DNA of 28,583 bases. Origin: Microbotryomycetes sp. JL201 (Eukaryota; Basidiomycota; Microbotryomycetes). Position numbers and translations under genes: made by a program. The stretch is from NCBI GenBank assembly GCA_033819885.1, contig JAQYUZ010000076.1, positions 1-28,583 of the forward strand. Direction: 5' to 3'. Numbering within the stretch: position 1 is the stretch's first letter; each line of letters opens with the position of its first letter. Shown here piece after piece: positions 3,864 through 17,554 of the stretch. The notes under the pieces are model-generated. The model searched no databases, was not told the origin of the DNA, and was given only the letters and a program-made list of their open reading frames with translations.

Positions 3864-5412
3864 ATGAAAGCCTGGGTGTTTCGCAAGGCAAGATCACTTC
3901 ATGCATGCATGGCCAATGCTGCCCTTGCGCACAGACGCTTCGCACGCAGCCGCGCCGAGCAGGACCGTGCTGACCTGCAGGCTCCTTTTCCAGGCGGGCA
4001 AGCCTACAGATGTCCTCAAACTAGAGTCAGACTACCCCAAGCCGTCTCCGGCGGGCAAGAAGCTGCTCGTCGAGGTGCATGCCGTCGCACTGAACCGTTA
4101 GTGTTCTCGCCTTTGGGCATCTCATGAATCTCATCATGACCAAACCTTGAGCAGCTGTCGCGTGGAAAACGATGGGAACCGCGCCACTCTGCTGGGCTCA
4201 CAAAAAGCCAGCGGTCCCTGAAGCTGACATTGCTGGCAAGCTCGTAGACGGCGACGTCTCGGGCACAAATCTCAAAATCGGAGATGAAGTCATTGGCTTC
4301 ATACCGTACAACACGATCATGAAGCACGGTCAGGGTGGACTAGCCGAGTTCACACTTGTTGAATCCCACCTCGTGAAAAAGAAACCCGCCAACGTTTCGT
4401 TTGAAGAGGCGGCTTCGCTGCCATTGACAGCATTGACGGCGTGGCAAGCTCTCATTGATACAGGCAAGCTCACGGAAGCTGACGGAAAGCGCGTCTTCAT
4501 CGTAAGCTCTCGTGCGGCTCTCAAAGATCAAGGAAAACTTGCTGACGCTTGGCGACCACAGAACGGTGGCAGCGGCGGAGTGGGTGCTTATGCCGTGCAG
4601 GTGCGCGATCTGTAGTTCCGGCAAGCTTCGTGCTCCTGATATCGTGCTTCGCAGATCGCCAAGGCTTTCGGAGCATACGTCGTTACGACGAAATCAGAGT
4701 CATCGAAACAGCTCGTCGACTCGCTCGAGCCAGCCGAGTCGATCGACTACAAGAGCGTAAATCTGTCTCGACACCTCGCCGAAAACTACAGCGGAGATAA
4801 GGCATTCGACATTGTCTTTGACACAGTCGGTGTACCGGAACTCTACATCAACTGCGCTCGCTTCATCAAGGTGCGGTCGAGGTGAATCAAAAACTTCCTT
4901 ACACGTACTGAGCGTTCTGATCATGCAGCCGTCCGGCACATTCGTCGATATCGGTGAGCCCGGCGCCTCTCGTGACCACACGACGGCTGATCCTTGCCCT
5001 GCTGCAGCTGGTCCTCACCTGGGTGGCGGCGTTCTCTCCGCTGCCAGCACGGCACTCTCATTCGCCTCCAAAGCTTTCCTTCCAACATTCCTGGGAGGAA
5101 ACCCTTTCAAGTATAATATCATCATGCTGAAAGGTCTGACCATGGGAGACGAGTTTCAGCAGCTGGTCGACTTGGTGGCCAAGGGTACGCAGCTCGCCGC
5201 TCGCAGACTCCCAATAGGCAGCTTACAATGTTGTGCAGGCACCGTCAAGCCTCTCGTTGATTCTACTCACAAGTTTGAGGACGCTCTCCAAGCCTACGAA
5301 AGGCAGATGTCGTCGCGGTTAGTGTTGACTCTGTCTTTGAACGAGGCCTTTGCTCATGCGCTCGCTCGGGTTCAGTGCCAAGGGCAAAGTCATTGTTAAA
5401 GTCAAAGCCTGA
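3864..5412 (+). CDS. Zinc-less MDR oxidoreductase (quinone reductase-like)
   Basis: Nine exons (3864-3887, 3994-4096, 4155-4501, 4562-4600, 4655-4870, 4929-4953, 5008-5184, 5239-5317, 5376-5412) join in frame to 348 residues, the usual length of the medium-chain dehydrogenase/reductase family. The GroES-like N-domain has LNPVAWK, GDEVIGF and SLPLTALTAWQAL. The Rossmann NAD(P)H site is VFINGGSGGVGAYAVQIAKA. No structural-zinc Cys cluster or catalytic Cys/His pair is evident, so it belongs with the quinone reductase/RTN4IP1-like branch. The C-terminus GKVIVKVKA is typical of the family. Substrate unknown. Intron 1 follows an eight-codon first exon and has a GC donor (AAG then GCAAGA) with a CAG acceptor. 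It is tandem with the esterase gene. Confidence 0.87.
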
Positions 5413-5871: not shown

Positions 5872-7946
5872 ATGGCTACTTCTTGGATCTCGTTTCAAGG
5901 CTTCGCCTGGTTTGCATGGCTGTCACTCGTCGTTTACCAAGTCAGACCGGCGAACGGGTTGCCGAAGCGCGCGCCGCCGACTGTCAAGACATCGGATGGC
6001 ACCACATGGATTGGAAAGCAGAACCTGGACATTGAAAACTTTCTGGGAATGCCGTTCGCTGAGCCGCCTTTGGGAAACTTGCGCTTTGCGCCACCAAAAC
6101 CACTCACGAAAGGCTTTGGAACGTTCGATGCATCTCAGTATGGGTACTCGTGCCCACAGATGCTTGGAGACAATACTGTGAGGCTATACAAAATCTTCAT
6201 GGAAGAAGATTGACTGAGTAGTATGTGTCCGCAGCCCATTCCCGCAGTTAGCAACCTTTTGTCCAGTGCGTTGACAGACGCTCTAAAGCTGCCTATCTTT
6301 GTGGCAGCTGGCGGAAAGTATGTGAGCGGGCGCGCCATTGATGCAGAAATGCTCATTCTTGTTTTGAGCAGCGCCAGTGAAGACTGCCTTACGATCAACG
6401 TCCAACGGCCAGCTGGTACGACTTCGAAAGCAAAGCTGCCAATTATGGCATTCATCTATGGAGGCGCCTTTGAATTAGGCGCTTCCGCCACATATGACGG
6501 CTCCTCGATCGTGCGAAGGTCGATGGCGAACAAACAGCCGGTCATATATGTCAGTTTCAACTACCGCCTGAACTCGTTTGGATTCCTCCCCGGCAAAGAA
6601 GTCGCCAGCGACCCAACGACATCGGTCAATGCCGGTCTCCTTGACCAGAGGCTCGCACTTGAATGGGTTGCAAAGAACATCGCTCAGTTCGGTGGCGACC
6701 CGGACAAGGTCACAATCTTTGGCGAAAGTGCCGGTGAGTGCCCAAAGGAACCATTGGCTTGCAGTTTGAGCTCAATCTGTTTCATTTTCAGGCGCCATCA
6801 GCATTGGCTTCCAGCTGATCGCCTACGATGGCAATATCGCGTCGGTGAATACAGGCAGACCCCTGTTTCGAGCTGCGATTATGGACTCTGGCGCTGTGCG
6901 TCCATTTGAGTGTATTCTGAGATGATCCGTCAGGTTGAAGATTCTGACTTGTCGTTTGCCAGCCCATTCCGGTCTTGGGACCAGAGAATGGCCAAGCTTC
7001 CTTCGACGTTGTCGCTCGAGAAACGGGATGCTCGACTGCAAGCGACAAGATTGCATGTCTGCGTGCCGTGCCTTATCAGAAACTTCTCGACGCGACAAAC
7101 AAGCTCCCAGGAATTTTTTCGGTCAGATCTGTCTCGCTCGCGTTCTTGCCGCGAACCGATGGCAAGTTCCTTCCTCGACTGGCCCAAGAGGCCGCGCGCA
7201 AAAAGACATTCGCGCGAGTGCCAATCATCAGTGGCAATCAATTTGATGAAGGCACGATCCTAGCTCTCGGCACGTACAACATTACGACCGATAATGCCGT
7301 CAAAAACTGGCTTCGCGACGTCTGGTTCCCGCGCACGACGGACGCTCAGCGAACAAAGATGCTGGAGTTGTACCCACGCAACCCTACACAGGGCAGTCCA
7401 TTTGATACGGGCTTGCTGTACGCTTACACGCCTCAGAACAAGCGGATCTCTGCGATGGTCGGCGACTTTGTTTTCCAAGCGGAGAGGAGGATCTTGCTCA
7501 AAGCTGCTCAAGGCATCATCCCGACCTGGTCTTATGTCAGCAGGGCACTCAGAGCGACACCTTTCCTGGGCAAGTTGCCGGTCGAGGAACTAGATTCACC
7601 TCGTTGCTGACTTGCGTTAGCTTACCCAGGTACTTTCCACGGTTCCGATCTCCTCTCGCTGTTCTTTTCCCCACTCGACCCGGCCACCGAGATCCAATCT
7701 CGATACATTGCCTTTGCGAACAACCTAGATCGTAAGTGGGCTTGCTGCAGATCACTTGTCGTGTTCCTAGCTCAGTCGCGTTTGCCACTCGCAGCCAATG
7801 TGCCGGGCTATCCCTACTGGCCTCAATACGGCACAAACCAGACGTTGTTGCAGTTCACCGACACAAAGTCTTCTTCGATGTTTGACACATACAGGAAGGA
7901 TGCGATTGCGTTCTGGGGTGATAACGCGGACGTGCTGTCACTATGA
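5872..7946 (+). CDS. Secreted type-B carboxylesterase/lipase
   Basis: Seven exons (5872-6177, 6235-6317, 6372-6733, 6792-6895, 6963-7569, 7621-7731, 7795-7946) give 574 residues, the usual length for fungal Candida rugosa-type lipases and cholinesterase-like enzymes. A signal peptide is visible: a hydrophobic stretch [14 protein letters not shown], then an Lys-Arg that may be a Kex2 site. Family marks in order: [14 protein letters not shown], oxyanion-hole YGGAF, nucleophile Ser249 in FGESAGAISIG (split by intron 3), likely acid Glu381 in NQFDEG, and His494 in GTFHGSDLL. It should hydrolyse lipid or other carboxylic esters outside the cell or at the wall. Intron 5 needs a GC donor (GCAAGT) to restore YPGTFHGSD; no GT donor there keeps the frame. 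Confidence 0.9.
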
Positions 7947-8111: not shown

Positions 8112-8576
8112 TTACTGCTGAACTTGCTTTCGTTCCATGGCTGTAGAGTCAGTAGTGGAGTCAGAGTCGGAGAACGCGCGTAATAGCAGGGCAAATGAGC
8201 GCTCACGATTGTCTGTGCGAAAGAGCAGCAGATAGTCAGCTCCTGCAGTAAAAGCACAGGGACAGTCGGGCTTACAGTGCAGCAACTTTTCAATCAAGTC
8301 GACGTGCGTCAAAACCATGCGCCGGCAGCAATACCGCTTCAGTCCGAGGCCATCGAGCGCCTCTCTGTGTACACAAGCGGCCAGGAAAATGACCCAGAGC
8401 CTGTGTCAGTCCACTGTCCCTAGAACCTAACGCAAGTGATGGCAGTCGGCTGCCGACGAAGCCTTGAAAAGGACGCCTCACCCTTCAGTGTGGTTGTTCT
8501 CGAGCAGGGCGAGGTACTGCGTCCACTTGTCACCGACAACTTTGCCGCATGAGAAACATCTGACGGGGATGATCAT
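8112..8576 (-). CDS. RPB10: RNA polymerase I/II/III subunit Rpb10 (ABC10-beta)
   Basis: Four exons (8576-8482, 8364-8276, 8212-8207, 8140-8112) make 72 residues. The sequence is near identical to known Rpb10: [54 protein letters not shown]. The zinc ligands are Cys7, Cys10, Cys44 and Cys45. Rpb10 is shared by all three nuclear RNA polymerases and caps the Rpb3/Rpb11 platform. The third exon is only 6 nt (ACAATC), between a CACAG acceptor and a GTGAGC donor; it completes Tyr, adds Asn and starts Pro of the conserved HYNP. Introns 2 (63 nt) and 3 (66 nt) are multiples of three with no in-frame stop. The start codon lies 322 nt from that of divergent ProRS. Confidence 0.93.
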
Positions 8577-8898: not shown

Positions 8899-11525
8899 AT
8901 GGACGTCGCAGCCCTCTCGCAGCGCCTCGACACGCTCTCACTCACCAGCGCGCCCGCTCAACCCGGTGCGACCGCGCTCGTCTCGTACTTTTTCACGCCA
9001 AAGAGCGGCTCGAAACACCCCAACAATGCAGAGGTCGACTTGAAACTCGTAGTTGTCACTATCGAAGACTCCAAGAACCTCGGCCCGGCCAAGCAGATCG
9101 CCCAGAGCGTCGGCTTGAAAGACATGCGAGCGATCGGCGCAGCAGACTTGGACAAGCTGCTCGGACGCAAGCGTGAAGAGGGTTAGAAGCCTTTCTCGCA
9201 GCAATCGCGATACTCAAAAGGCTTGCCAGACTGACATTGTGACCCTCCGTGTTTCTGTGCAGCCTCGCCTCTGTCCGTGCCCCCGTCACTCGCGTCCCAG
9301 ACTCTGCTCGTCACGTCTGCTTCGCTCGCAGGAGCCCAAAGTTTGTCTGTGCCGTCTCCTGCCGACCCATCGCAAACGGTTGCGTTTTCCGCAGCCGAAT
9401 TTGAGAAGGTCGTCGCCCAGCTTGCTTCAGAAGGCGCCGCCACCGCGCAGGCCGATTTCCTCCTCAAGGGCGAGGAAGCTCCGTGAGTAGTTGCCCACAG
9501 GATGTGCCACTGAGGTGTACTCATGCATTTACGCGATATCAGCGCCCCGGCTCCCCGAGCTCAACAGCCAGCAGCTGCCGAGGGCTCACTCGCTGCTGCC
9601 GCCGCGGCTTCCGCCGCTGCCAGAAAGGAACTTGACGGCAAGTCTGGCGTACAGCTCGGCATTACTGTCAAGAAGGAGCAAGCCGTGTTTGGCGAATGGT
9701 ACTCCCAGGTAAGACGACTTTCTCTCAGTAGATGAGTATTAGTTGATCTGACAGCCCGCCCTCTAGGTGTTGACGAAGGGAGACATGCTGGACTACTACG
9801 ACATCTCTGGATGCTATATCCTTAAGCCTTGGTCATACGGTATCTGGCAAGATATTCAGAGTAAGGAGACGAGGAATGGAACAAGTCAGATAGCTAACGT
9901 ATGCGACGTTGCGCAGCTTGGTTTGACGCAAGGATGTGAGGCACAACCCATGGCTCATATAGTGTTTTCTATTGACCGAGGAAGTCCTCTTGCAGCAAGG
10001 AGCTCGGTGTCCAGAACGCCTCGTTCCCGTTGTTTGTCTCGAACCGCGCACTCGAACGCGAAAAGGATCACATCGAAGGATTTGCTCCTGAAGTCGCTTG
10101 GGTTACCAAGGCCGGCAACAACGACCTTGACGAACCGATTGCCATTCGACCGACGTCAGAGACCGTCATGTACCCGTACTACTCAAAGTGGATCCGCTCG
10201 CACCGCGACTTGCCGCTGAAGCTCAACTTGTGGAACTCTGTCGTGCGCTGGGAGTTCAAGAATCCGCAGCCTTTCTTGCGAACACGCGAGTTCTTGTGGC
10301 AGGAAGGCCACACTGCGCATTTGACGAAGGACGAGGCCGGAACCGAGGTGTTGCAGATTCTTGACTTGTACAGGCGAGTGTATGAAGAGTTGCTGGCCGT
10401 GCCTGTCATTCCAGGTGTCAAGTCGGAGAAGGAAAAGTTCGCCGGCGGCTTGTACACTACCACCGTCGAAGGTTTTGTACCGACGACTGGTCGAGGTATC
10501 CAAGGTGGCACGTCGCACTGCCTTGGTCAAAACTTTTCGAAAATGTTTGACATTACGGTCGAGGACCCCGTCAAGAAGGGTGACAAGCTGTTCGTGTGGC
10601 AAAATTCCTGGGGTTTGTCGACTCGAACGATCGGCGTCATGGTTATGGTTCACAGCGACGACAAGGGTCTCGTTTTGCCTCCTCGCGTCGCTCAACTCCA
10701 AGTCGTCATTGTCCCAGTCGGTATTACGGCAAAGACGACTGACGAGGTACGAGACAAGATTTATGATGAGACGGACAAGCTTGCCAAAGAGTTGAGCAAG
10801 GCTGGCTTGAGGGTCAAAGCGGACTTGAGGGACGGCTACACGCCCGCGTTCAAGTACAACGATTGGGAGCTGAAGGTGTGTGGCATGCCAGACTACTGTC
10901 TCGCGTGACTCGCGACTGATAATCGCGTCCATAGGGCGTGCCGATTCGTCTCGAGCTTGGACCAAAAGATCTCGAAAAGGGCACGACCGTCGCCGTCCGC
11001 CGCGACAACGGGGCCAAGTCCGATCTGTCGTTGGCCAACCTGACGACAGAGATTCCCGCCTTGCTGAACCAGATCCACGATGACATGTATTCGCGCGCTC
11101 GCAAGACGTATGACGAATCAATCATCAAGATTGAACAATGGAAAGATGTTGTTCCGGGACTCAACAAGAACCACGTTCTGGTGCTGCCATGGTGCGAGGT
11201 CGAGCAGTGCGAGGACGACATCAAAAAGAGGAGTGCCGAGGAGTGAGTCGCCAAGTTGCTCGGCTGCCCTGATCTTTGGCGTCGTGACTGATTTACGCTA
11301 CACCAGATCGGCAGTGGTGCAAGACGACAAGGCCCCTTCTGCAGGAGCAAAGTCGTTGTGCATTCCTCACGACCAAGCACGTTTCGGAGACATTACGGGC
11401 AAGAAGTGTCCTGCATGCGGCCAAGATGCCAAGAGATGGACATTGTTTGGCAGGAGTTGTAAGCTTTGTGTGCGCGCGCAACTCGAATTACAATCGGCTG
11501 ACTCTTGTAACATCCGACAGACTGA
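8899..11525 (+). CDS. Cytosolic prolyl-tRNA synthetase with editing-like domain
   Basis: Nine exons (8899-9181, 9263-9482, 9543-9708, 9767-9860, 9917-9935, 9996-10875, 10935-11242, 11307-11458, 11521-11525) give 708 residues. Residues 1 to about 160 resemble the YbaK/ProX editing-like domain also found at the N-terminus of yeast YHR020W. An Ala-rich linker precedes the class II catalytic core. It shows [30 protein letters not shown], motif 2 [16 protein letters not shown] and motif 3 [19 protein letters not shown]. The C-terminal zinc-like domain has CPACGQ and ends in the conserved FGRSY. The enzyme charges tRNA-Pro with proline. Exon 5 has 19 nt and restores TWFDARIKELGVQN. The last coding exon has only 5 nt, supplying two bases of the final Tyr and the stop. 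It converges with CUE3, stops 110 nt apart. Confidence 0.93.
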
Positions 11526-14162: not shown

Positions 14163-16702
14163 ATGTTTATCGTCCAGTCGACGCCGTTGGCCGAGATCCA
14201 AAAGAACAAGAACCCGCTGCCGGCACTCGTCTTGGTCGTTGTCGAGTCGTCAGTCGCCCGGATTTGAATCGCCGCAGCCTGCGTGGAGGCGGCGGGTGAC
14301 AAGACATGATAATGTGCTGACGCCGCCCTGTTGCAACAGCATCCTCGAGGTATTCTTCCTGTGGTGAGCCCGGCTAGCATCACGCAGTCACACCTCTGTC
14401 CGGGTTATGGACGTCGAGGCGATGCACAGCGCACAATGACGCGCACTCGGCCTGGGCGGTGAACGATGCACTGCACGAGCTGACAGGAACGGCATCATAT
14501 CGTCGCTAACTGATAATCGTAGTGCAACAGGATGGTACCTCGCAAAAAGGGGCATTGTGGATGACAAGGCCAAAAAGGTACACCATGCGCGCACGCTCAG
14601 GCCCCTCTGCATCCCTCTCGGCTGACGCGACCTGTGCAAACAGACTCTTAACAAGCGTCAGTGGTCTCGGAATACATTTGACACGAAAACACATCCACGT
14701 CATCTCATGTCTACTTTCGACAGTCAACGTCTCGCTGTTTACACCGGCGCTCTTGTTCTCCAAAGTCGCCTTTAGTCTCACTCCAGAAAAGCTTGCAGAC
14801 TTGTACATCATCCCAATCGGATTCGTCGGCATCACTGCGTTCTCAGCCGCAGTCGCATACGTCTTGGGCAGACTATGCCGCCTCAAAGACAATCAACGCA
14901 ACTTTGCCAGTGCGCAATTTCTACGTTTCAAAAGCTCAAAAAAGCGCGACTGACGCCGCAACTCAACCTCCCAGTCGCTTGCGCCATGTTCCAAAACTCA
15001 AACAGCTTGCCGATCGCGCTGATGCAATCGCTCATAGGCGAAAAGATGCCCTTGTCCTGGGGCCCACACGACACTCGCGATCAACAACTCGGTCGTGCTT
15101 TGTCGTGTCAGTTGACCATGTCTCAGCTGTCGGATGATGATGTGCTGACCAAGACCCAACTGCGCCCTTAGACCTCGTCCTGTTTTCGACCCTCGGTATC
15201 ATTGTGCGTTGGTCGATTGGCGTTCGCCTGCTGACGTCTGCCGAAAACCAAGACGACGAGGACGACCTCAGTGACGACGCCGATCCTTTCGAAGGTAATG
15301 GCGCAGCGGAAGAGCAAGATCGAGAAGCTACATACTATGTCAACGGCAGTCGTGAAAACGGCGCCGACGACCCTTTGATAAAACCAGCTTCGAAAACCTC
15401 TTCGTCCGCTCGCAACACTGAACCCAGGCGCAGGAGAGAAGGTAACGGAATCGAAAACGGTATCGAAGGGGACGGCGCGAGAGCTTGGAGAGAGCCGCAT
15501 CAACTCAGTAGCGAGGCCACGGTCGTTGCCGGTTCAAATGGTCAGGCCCAACCCAACGTCACCCAAGGCAAACAAAAGAAGAGCGATCGCATTTTCATGT
15601 CGTTCCCAAATACGCCCATTCCGTCCCAATATGGTGGATCGGACGCAGGCGGGGACGATGACGAGGAATTCGACGATGACGAGCACGATGACGAGTGGGG
15701 AGCTCGACGGGGAGTCGGAAGAAGTGCCGTCGATGGCAATGACAGCGAATTCTGGTCTAGATTCAGGGCAAAGACTGCTCGCGTTGCGAGACCTTTGAAA
15801 AAGATTGGCAAGAAAATCGGTTCCTTCGTGAGTTGGCACGCAAGTTGCGAGGGCTATGCTCGTCACTGACGGTTGACGTGTCGGATGGCAGATGACGGTA
15901 CCACTATGGGCAGCTCTGCTTTCACTTATCGTCGCGTGCATTCCACCCTTGCAGTGGGCTTTGAACGAGGCTGAGCCGCTCAAATCAGCTATAAAGAACG
16001 CAGGCAATTGCTCGGTTCCAATCACGCTCGTCACCCTCGGAGCATACTTTTACAGGCCTTCGGATCCATCCCGTCCGCCGCTCATGAAACGCCTCAATCC
16101 GTTCTCGAAAAAACCGACGTCGTCAGCGTCGTCAACTGCATCATCATTCAGATCACACAGGACATCATCGAAACCTGGCGAGACGATGACAATTGTTGTC
16201 TCTGTCGTTGCGAGGATGATTGTCGTGCCGTTGTGCTTGCTGCCGCTGTTTGCTTGGTACGCAAGGGAGACGTTCAATGTTGCCGATGACCCTGTCTTTG
16301 TCGTCACGGCTTGCCTCTTGATTGGGTCAGTCTCAGATCACGCCTGCTAAAAAGTGAAGCTTGCAGCTGACAGTGGACAAATGCTTTGTGCGCTGCACAG
16401 ATCGCCAACTGCCATCACGCTGGCTCAGATCACGTCCTCGGCTTCCGGAGCTACATTCGAGAAACTCAGTGAGCAGGCCCAATGCCGCCGCGTACTGCCT
16501 TCTCAGCGTGCTGAACGTATCTTTGCACAGTCTCAAAGACTTTGTTTGTTTCTTATGCCATCATGACGTGAGTCGGCGGGCAGAGATGCGCAACTACAGA
16601 GCGAAAACTGATGTCTCGTCCGCCGGTAGCGCACCTTGCACCATCTTGTTGGTCATCGCTGCGTTGTACATTGACAAAATTCAGTCTCAACATCACCACT
16701 GA
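14163..16702 (+). CDS. PIN-like (auxin efflux carrier family) membrane transporter
   Basis: Eleven exons (14163-14248, 14340-14363, 14523-14577, 14644-14656, 14724-14909, 14975-15106, 15172-15827, 15892-16325, 16401-16468, 16531-16567, 16630-16702) give 587 residues. The N-terminal membrane half has ESILEVFFLCATGWYLAKRG, then LNKLNVSLFTPALLFSKVAF, and FQNSNSLPIALMQSL. A long hydrophilic loop rich in Asp, Ser and Lys follows (EEFDDDEHDDEW), then the C-terminal membrane half (LITLV-type helices, MIVVPLCLLPLF, SPTAITLAQIT, TLFVSYAIMT). This two-half layout with a central loop is that of PF03547 proteins, in fungi the Ecm3/YNL095C group, thought to sit in the ER or plasma membrane; the cargo is unknown. 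Exons of 24 and 13 nt were needed to restore the conserved first helices. Four donors read GTCAGT. Confidence 0.88.
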
Positions 16703-16944: not shown

Positions 16945-17554
16945 CTAGTACCATTGGGAACCGCCCGGTCCGGCGTCATATTGGCCCATGCCACCGTACC
17001 CACCACCCGTGCCACTAGCGAACCCGCTGCCGGCATGTCCACCAATCGCAGCGCCACCGCCGCCAAATTCATCTTGAGCAACTTGTTGCCTCGCAACTTC
17101 ACTTGTGAAGGCAGCCTTCATCTTGGACAAAGTATAGATGAGTTGCTTGCACGCGTTGCGAACGACTTCGACGGGCGATTCAGTGCCGTCGGTCTGAACC
17201 TTTAGAACGACGGCTGGTTCGAGAGGATGAGGTACTTTGTAGCCGGCGAAAATGACCGAGTTCATCAACAACAGTTGACTAGGAACCATGTGAGACTCGT
17301 TAATTCAAACGATTTGAAAATGCGACGAGCCGAGAGAACGGACTGACCCTCTGAGCATGTTGGCAAGCGTATGATCTTCCTTGTTGATCGTTATAGTCGC
17401 CGCATTTGGAATTTTCGTGTCTTCATCGATGATGAGCCTGCAGGGACGCGTGAGCGAATCAGATCAAAGCGTCGCGTGATGAATTCGAAGCTGAAACGCA
17501 CTTTTGCTCGCCATCTCCGAGGATGAACTGCTCGGCTCTGTTTGGTGCGTTCAT
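16945..17554 (-). CDS. RPB11: RNA polymerase II subunit Rpb11 with glycine-rich tail
   Basis: Three exons (17554-17502, 17437-17348, 17278-16945) make 158 residues. The sequence follows known Rpb11: MNAPNRAEQFILGDGEQK, DEDTKIPNAATITINKEDHT, LANMLRGQLLLMNSVIFAGY and KVPHPLEPAVVLKVQT. Rpb11 pairs with Rpb3 as the alpha-like heterodimer that nucleates Pol II assembly. Rpb11 is usually about 115-120 residues; here the last 35-40 residues add a Gly-rich stretch (GGGGAAIGG, GGGYGGMG) ending in QWY before the stop. This tail is continuous with the core and not separated by an intron. Intron 2 has a GTCAGT donor. The gene is convergent with the PIN-like gene and divergent from uL15. Confidence 0.92.

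Follow-up and report, generated by a model that had tools for sequence, protein, structure and literature searches.

Very short exons are described for both fungi and plants. In basidiomycete yeasts, they occur in the bglA genes, whose exons were established by comparison with cDNA and whose mean intron lengths are 59, 81, 60 and 60 nt in four species (PMC9142197). The minimum exon length is 6 bp in Rhodotorula minuta and 5 bp in Sirobasidium magnum, and 10 of the 22 exons of R. minuta bglA are shorter than 30 bp (PMC9142197). The bglA product is a cell-bound glycosidase, whereas the gene considered here specifies an RNA polymerase subunit, and the table in that report leaves unstated whether the smallest bglA exon is internal or terminal. 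Similarly, the shortest exon among P450 genes of the basidiomycete Phanerochaete chrysosporium is 6 bp long and the introns are small (PMC1184071); that case concerns a P450 gene family, and its exons appear to be largely genome gene models. In Fusarium CYP621A, a 1-nt exon was deduced from a conserved motif within an overlong intron of 139 nt, compared with a median of 56 nt (PMC12940212). CYP621A and RPB10, the gene of interest here, are alike in that a tiny exon within an overlong intron is called for by a conserved motif. However, the CYP621A exon is a single nucleotide, is essential for the frame, and is backed by reads in two species and by many orthologs (PMC12940212), whereas the RPB10 exon has 6 nt, is frame-neutral and is known from one DNA sequence alone. 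In Trichoderma virens, a microexon of Xlr2 acts as a glucose-dependent switch (PMC11121469); the RPB10 microexon, in contrast, would be expected to be constitutive. Plant microexons, including the 1-nt exons of APC11 and VPS55, are conserved and often unannotated, with retention more frequent than skipping (PMC8831610). These differ from RPB10 in being plant genes, and the term 'RNA polymerase' is absent from the main text of that report. No RPB10 microexon was found in literature searched by the names Rpb10 and RPABC5 (titles and the starts of abstracts), and the accessible portions of PMC3990503, PMC8022950 and PMC2219887 yielded no microexon in a named gene. The RPB10 microexon is no new kind, given that exons this short or shorter are already known in fungi; among the reported fungal exons below 10 nt it provides a housekeeping case, and it opens no new mechanism.

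The window, i.e. the whole stretch of DNA that was analysed, comprises 28,583 nt of a contig of Microbotryomycetes sp. JL201 (JAQYUZ010000076.1, assembly GCA_033819885.1). Seven genes were modelled in it from reading frame, splice signals and homology, giving 41 introns; curation was by eye, guided by generic splice signals and by known sequences of the families. Automatic models of five further stretches were kept out of all counts. One of the seven is RPB10, which specifies the small subunit common to RNA polymerases I, II and III (Rpb10, ABC10-beta or RPABC5). When spliced with the microexon, its product has 72 residues, matches PF01194 above the cut-off of 26.9 with 109.1 bits, and aligns without gaps over residues 1-68 with 3h0g_J (120.8 bits). 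A Cys-X2-Cys near the N-terminus, a Cys-Cys pair and the HVDLIEKLL tail are all present in the spliced translation, and the cysteines of the first two together form the zinc-binding motif of Rpb10. The coordinates are collected in Table 1.

Table 1. Features of the RPB10 gene and other short exons and unusual introns in the window.
Feature	Position	Strand	Remarks
RPB10 coding exon 1	8482..8576	-	95 nt, ATG at 8576, ends ...HTEG; Pfam PF01194
RPB10 intron 1	8365..8481	-	117 nt, GTGAGG...CACAG; retention gives in-frame stops
RPB10 coding exon 2	8276..8364	-	89 nt, ends CAC T, phase 1
RPB10 intron 2a	8213..8275	-	63 nt, GTAAGC...CGCACAG; length a multiple of three (3n), no in-frame stop
Intron 2a branch site, best-scoring	CTGAC, A at 8236	-	24 nt upstream of exon
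RPB10 microexon ACAATC	8207..8212	-	6 nt; completes Tyr62, Asn63, first base of Pro64
RPB10 intron 2b	8141..8206	-	66 nt, GTGAGC...CTCTACAG; 3n, no in-frame stop
Intron 2b branch site, best-scoring	CTGAC, A at 8161	-	21 nt upstream of exon
RPB10 last coding exon	8112..8140	-	29 nt, (C)CC ATG GAA ... stop
24-nt and 13-nt microexons	14340-14363 and 14644-14656	+	Mem_trans (auxin-carrier-like) gene, start 14163
Prolyl-tRNA synthetase 19-nt internal exon	9917-9935	+	
Prolyl-tRNA synthetase last coding exon, 5 nt	11521-11525	+	completes final Tyr and stop codon
Likely GC-AG introns	3888-3993 and 7570-7629	+	oxidoreductase gene and carboxylesterase-like gene, respectively

The six bases ACAATC are almost certainly a real and normally constitutive coding microexon of RPB10, with flanking introns that would be recognised across the intron and removed stepwise. 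The inclusion of the microexon in mRNA, its constitutive use and the stepwise intron removal are what we infer from the genomic sequence. The original prediction had placed these bases at 8212-8207 between a CGCACAG acceptor and a GTGAGC donor, and a reading of the sequence bears this out. Introns 2a and 2b are both in phase 1 (T|AC AAT C|CC), and the translations reproduce these predicted phases as well as the contrast between LLHYNP and, when the exon is left out, LLHSMERK.

On both sides the microexon is flanked by GT-AG introns with branch-site-like sequences. For scoring, we used a position model that covers donor, acceptor and branch site; its training set comprised the 38 introns of the six other genes, with RPB10 left out. 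Under this model introns 2a (23.8) and 2b (22.7) rank second and fifth of the 41, a ranking that is only partly independent in that the training introns were themselves curated with generic signals and known family sequences. Intron length points in the same direction: 32 of the 38 training introns measure 54-69 nt and three reach 100 nt or more, so two introns of 63 and 66 nt are a better fit than a single one of 135 nt. In addition, a gene model that makes no use of protein comparison, with hand-set generic signals whose values and penalties were picked after the sequence had been read, selects the 6-nt exon at intron penalties of -14, -17, -19 and -21. At -23 and -25 the exon is lost and the open stretch is read through, which corresponds to retention, and skipping is chosen at none of the penalties tested from -14 to -25. 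Elsewhere in the window, the first intron of uL15 was overlooked by the automatic model and was placed by hand.

Introns 2a and 2b each have a donor, a branch site and an acceptor of their own, all strong, and would each be recognised as a unit, i.e. by intron definition. With 6 nt between the AG of 2a and the GT of 2b, the factors for both introns could probably not be bound together, so simultaneous occupancy of the two sites is improbable and stepwise removal likely. For plant microexons the same has been concluded (PMC8831610). The two introns would then be taken out one after the other, with the conserved Rpb10 tail as the product. Rpb10 is an essential protein, and constitutive inclusion is expected because this tail is conserved in it. 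Romfo et al. (2000) reportedly described intron definition in S. pombe. For ascomycetes and basidiomycetes alike, splice sites have been proposed to pair mainly across introns (PMC2397502), in which case exon length would be no barrier. The original prediction regarded an exon this short as below the size that normal exon definition handles; that limit is probably not relevant here, given such pairing and the typical length of both introns. The RPB10 microexon agrees with the view that under intron definition there is nearly no lower limit to exon length. Signs of exon-based regulation in Cryptococcus are a caution in this respect (PMC5851062).

The microexon could also be real and used alternatively, or lie within a regulated retention event, so that retention forms or a Ser-containing skip form would arise in some conditions. 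We consider this unlikely; it would not conflict with constitutive inclusion as the account of the main form. From 8275 to 8141 on the minus strand, the 135 nt that span both introns and the microexon are open in frame throughout, a property that the original prediction did not mention and that lets retention keep the frame too. Retention of 2a, 2b or both adds 21, 22 or 43 residues to the included form, and with 3n, stop-free introns the included, the skipped and the three retention forms are all open. The usual splice variant in fungi is intron retention, as opposed to exon skipping (PMC2397502; PMC5851062), the introns flanking plant microexons are concluded to be removed consecutively, with the upstream one often detained (PMC8831610), and the Trichoderma Xlr2 microexon works as a switch (PMC11121469). 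Retention, being common in fungi and in frame here in each of its forms, would be a likelier variant of RPB10 than skipping. The Tyr-Asn-Pro to Ser variant by skipping, raised in the original prediction, is possible in that the frame is kept, but it is not the form to be expected, as retention is common in fungi and in frame here.

Against alternative use, both introns carry strong signals, and 7 of the 41 modelled introns are 3n and stop-free, so that this property is not rare and by itself no sign of regulation. Two adjacent 3n, stop-free introns were considered as a signal of regulated retention and were set aside for the same reason. The RNA fold of 8300-8112 is unremarkable (z -0.61; 59 of 200 shuffles fold with equal or greater stability), and an essential subunit shared by the polymerases would be an improbable site for a switch. 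A more specific proposal, which we regard as very unlikely, is that the microexon acts together with its two stop-free, frame-neutral introns as a regulated unit tuning Rpb10. If it were true, slow stepwise removal would yield Rpb10 whose C-terminus is altered or extended, or unspliced RPB10 RNA would be withheld, and the unit would tune a subunit common to all three RNA polymerases.

Constitutive inclusion has further to be weighed against direct splicing of 8276 to 8140 as the main form, with ACAATC as a chance match, which is extremely unlikely. Direct splicing preserves the frame, and the 135-nt intron that it would use is strong at donor, branch site and acceptor alike, which together score 22.9, as good as 2a and 2b. 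Long introns are also present in the curated models (106, 117, 159 and 174 nt). Splice signals and length are compatible with skipping, given this score and the 117 nt of RPB10 intron 1. What speaks against it is the protein. With the six bases the tail reads LIEKLLHYNPMERK, including LLHYNPMERK; without them it reads LIEKLLHSMERK, including LLHSMERK. The alignment of the skip form with 3h0g_J falls to 110.1 bits and ends at residue 60, compared with 120.8 bits and residue 68 for the included form. Family profiles separate the two forms poorly: Pfam, for which the matched part extends up to residue 59, gives 109.1 bits for the included and 109.3 for the skipped form, and NCBIfam barely differs (92.6 and 90.4 bits).

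At the place of the microexon, Tyr is found in 8 of 8 alignments with solved Rpb10 sequences, these being the ones inspected of 17 distinct solved sequences matched, and all eight are Rpb10 by name. It stands in YNP in three of them (3h0g, 5x4z, 1i3q), which we take to be yeasts, 3h0g_J presumably being S. pombe Rpb10. YNT occurs in two (8hil, 7eu0) and YAP in three (28jc, 9mu7, 9eh1), presumably from plants and animals, respectively. After the HVDLIEK stretch the order is thus Tyr, then Asn or Ala, then Pro or Thr; RPB10 fits it solely with the 6-nt exon (YNP), while the skip form has Ser. Tyr62 was also compared with 82 further loci, which were chosen by sequence patterns and aligned pairwise and do not make up a random sample. 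Opposite it stand Phe in 45, Tyr in 34 and Leu in one, with a gap in two; Tyr or Phe is thus present in 79 of the 82. Both gapped loci are the viral-collection ones and are unaligned at this place. The set consists of two loci from viral contigs and 80 with prokaryote titles, the latter being the best 80 of at least 576 genome-contig relatives, and no fungal RPB10 relative was found among the two distant viral-contig loci or those best 80. Because Tyr or Phe prevails in these loci and Tyr in the solved Rpb10 proteins, the place of Tyr62 is an ancient aromatic position, where direct splicing would put Ser.

The internal signals also argue against a chance match. A scan of the window on both strands covered 6318 AG-(1-30 nt)-GT pairs, of which the RPB10 6-mer ranks first (23.6). 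Also within the top ten are four curated internal exons (24, 13, 19 and 25 nt), all four of which were in the training set while RPB10 was outside it, and five of the ten lie outside exons of curated genes; the scan is useful, not clean. Further, the 135 nt were dinucleotide-shuffled 20,000 times in their inner part, with the first 6 and the last 25 bases kept fixed. One shuffle contained any microexon of up to 30 nt with equal internal signals, and none contained one that was also in frame and open. HYNPM arose at any score in three of the shuffles and HY[NA]PM in 11. Across the 39 admissible positions, the number of AG-6 nt-GT arrangements encoding YNP that base composition would predict is 6e-5; with YAP allowed as well, the figure rises to 2.7e-4. 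The YNP microexon exceeds chance. Protein conservation and RPB10-free splice-signal scoring together support the predicted role of the 6-nt microexon in restoring the conserved Y-N-P. The last alternative, that the transcript stays unspliced after exon 2 and 8275-8141 codes for a lineage-specific C-terminus 43 residues longer, agrees with the open frame and with the gene model at penalties of -23 and -25, but its probability is next to negligible, as it interrupts the conserved tail just before Tyr62, leaves two consecutive complete sets of strong intron signals unexplained and is at odds with residues beyond YNP that still align with other Rpb10 proteins.

The locus is foremost a matter of annotation: the correct sequence of a 72-residue protein that is widely conserved depends on six bases, easily overlooked or merged by a gene finder. 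The outcome would be a protein with Ser in place of Tyr-Asn-Pro, or one with a spurious 43-residue extension.

The microexon is ordinary in its surroundings, as short exons are common in the genes of the window. Internal exons of at most 30 nt make up 5 of the 34 in the seven modelled genes (6, 13, 19, 24 and 25 nt). The 13-nt exon of the Mem_trans gene encodes TLNK directly upstream of LNVSLFTPALLF, and the 25-nt exon belongs to the oxidoreductase gene. The prolyl-tRNA synthetase model aligns with a solved enzyme over residues 205-708 of 708, and because the alignment runs through the 19-nt exon it supports the gene-modelling approach. The family search covered RPB10 and five other modelled genes; the name of the seventh, the carboxylesterase-like gene, is putative. 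The window contains a second gene for an RNA polymerase subunit: RPB11 (Pfam RNA_pol_L_2, 97.1 bits) lies at 16945-17554 on the minus strand, about 8.4 kb from RPB10.
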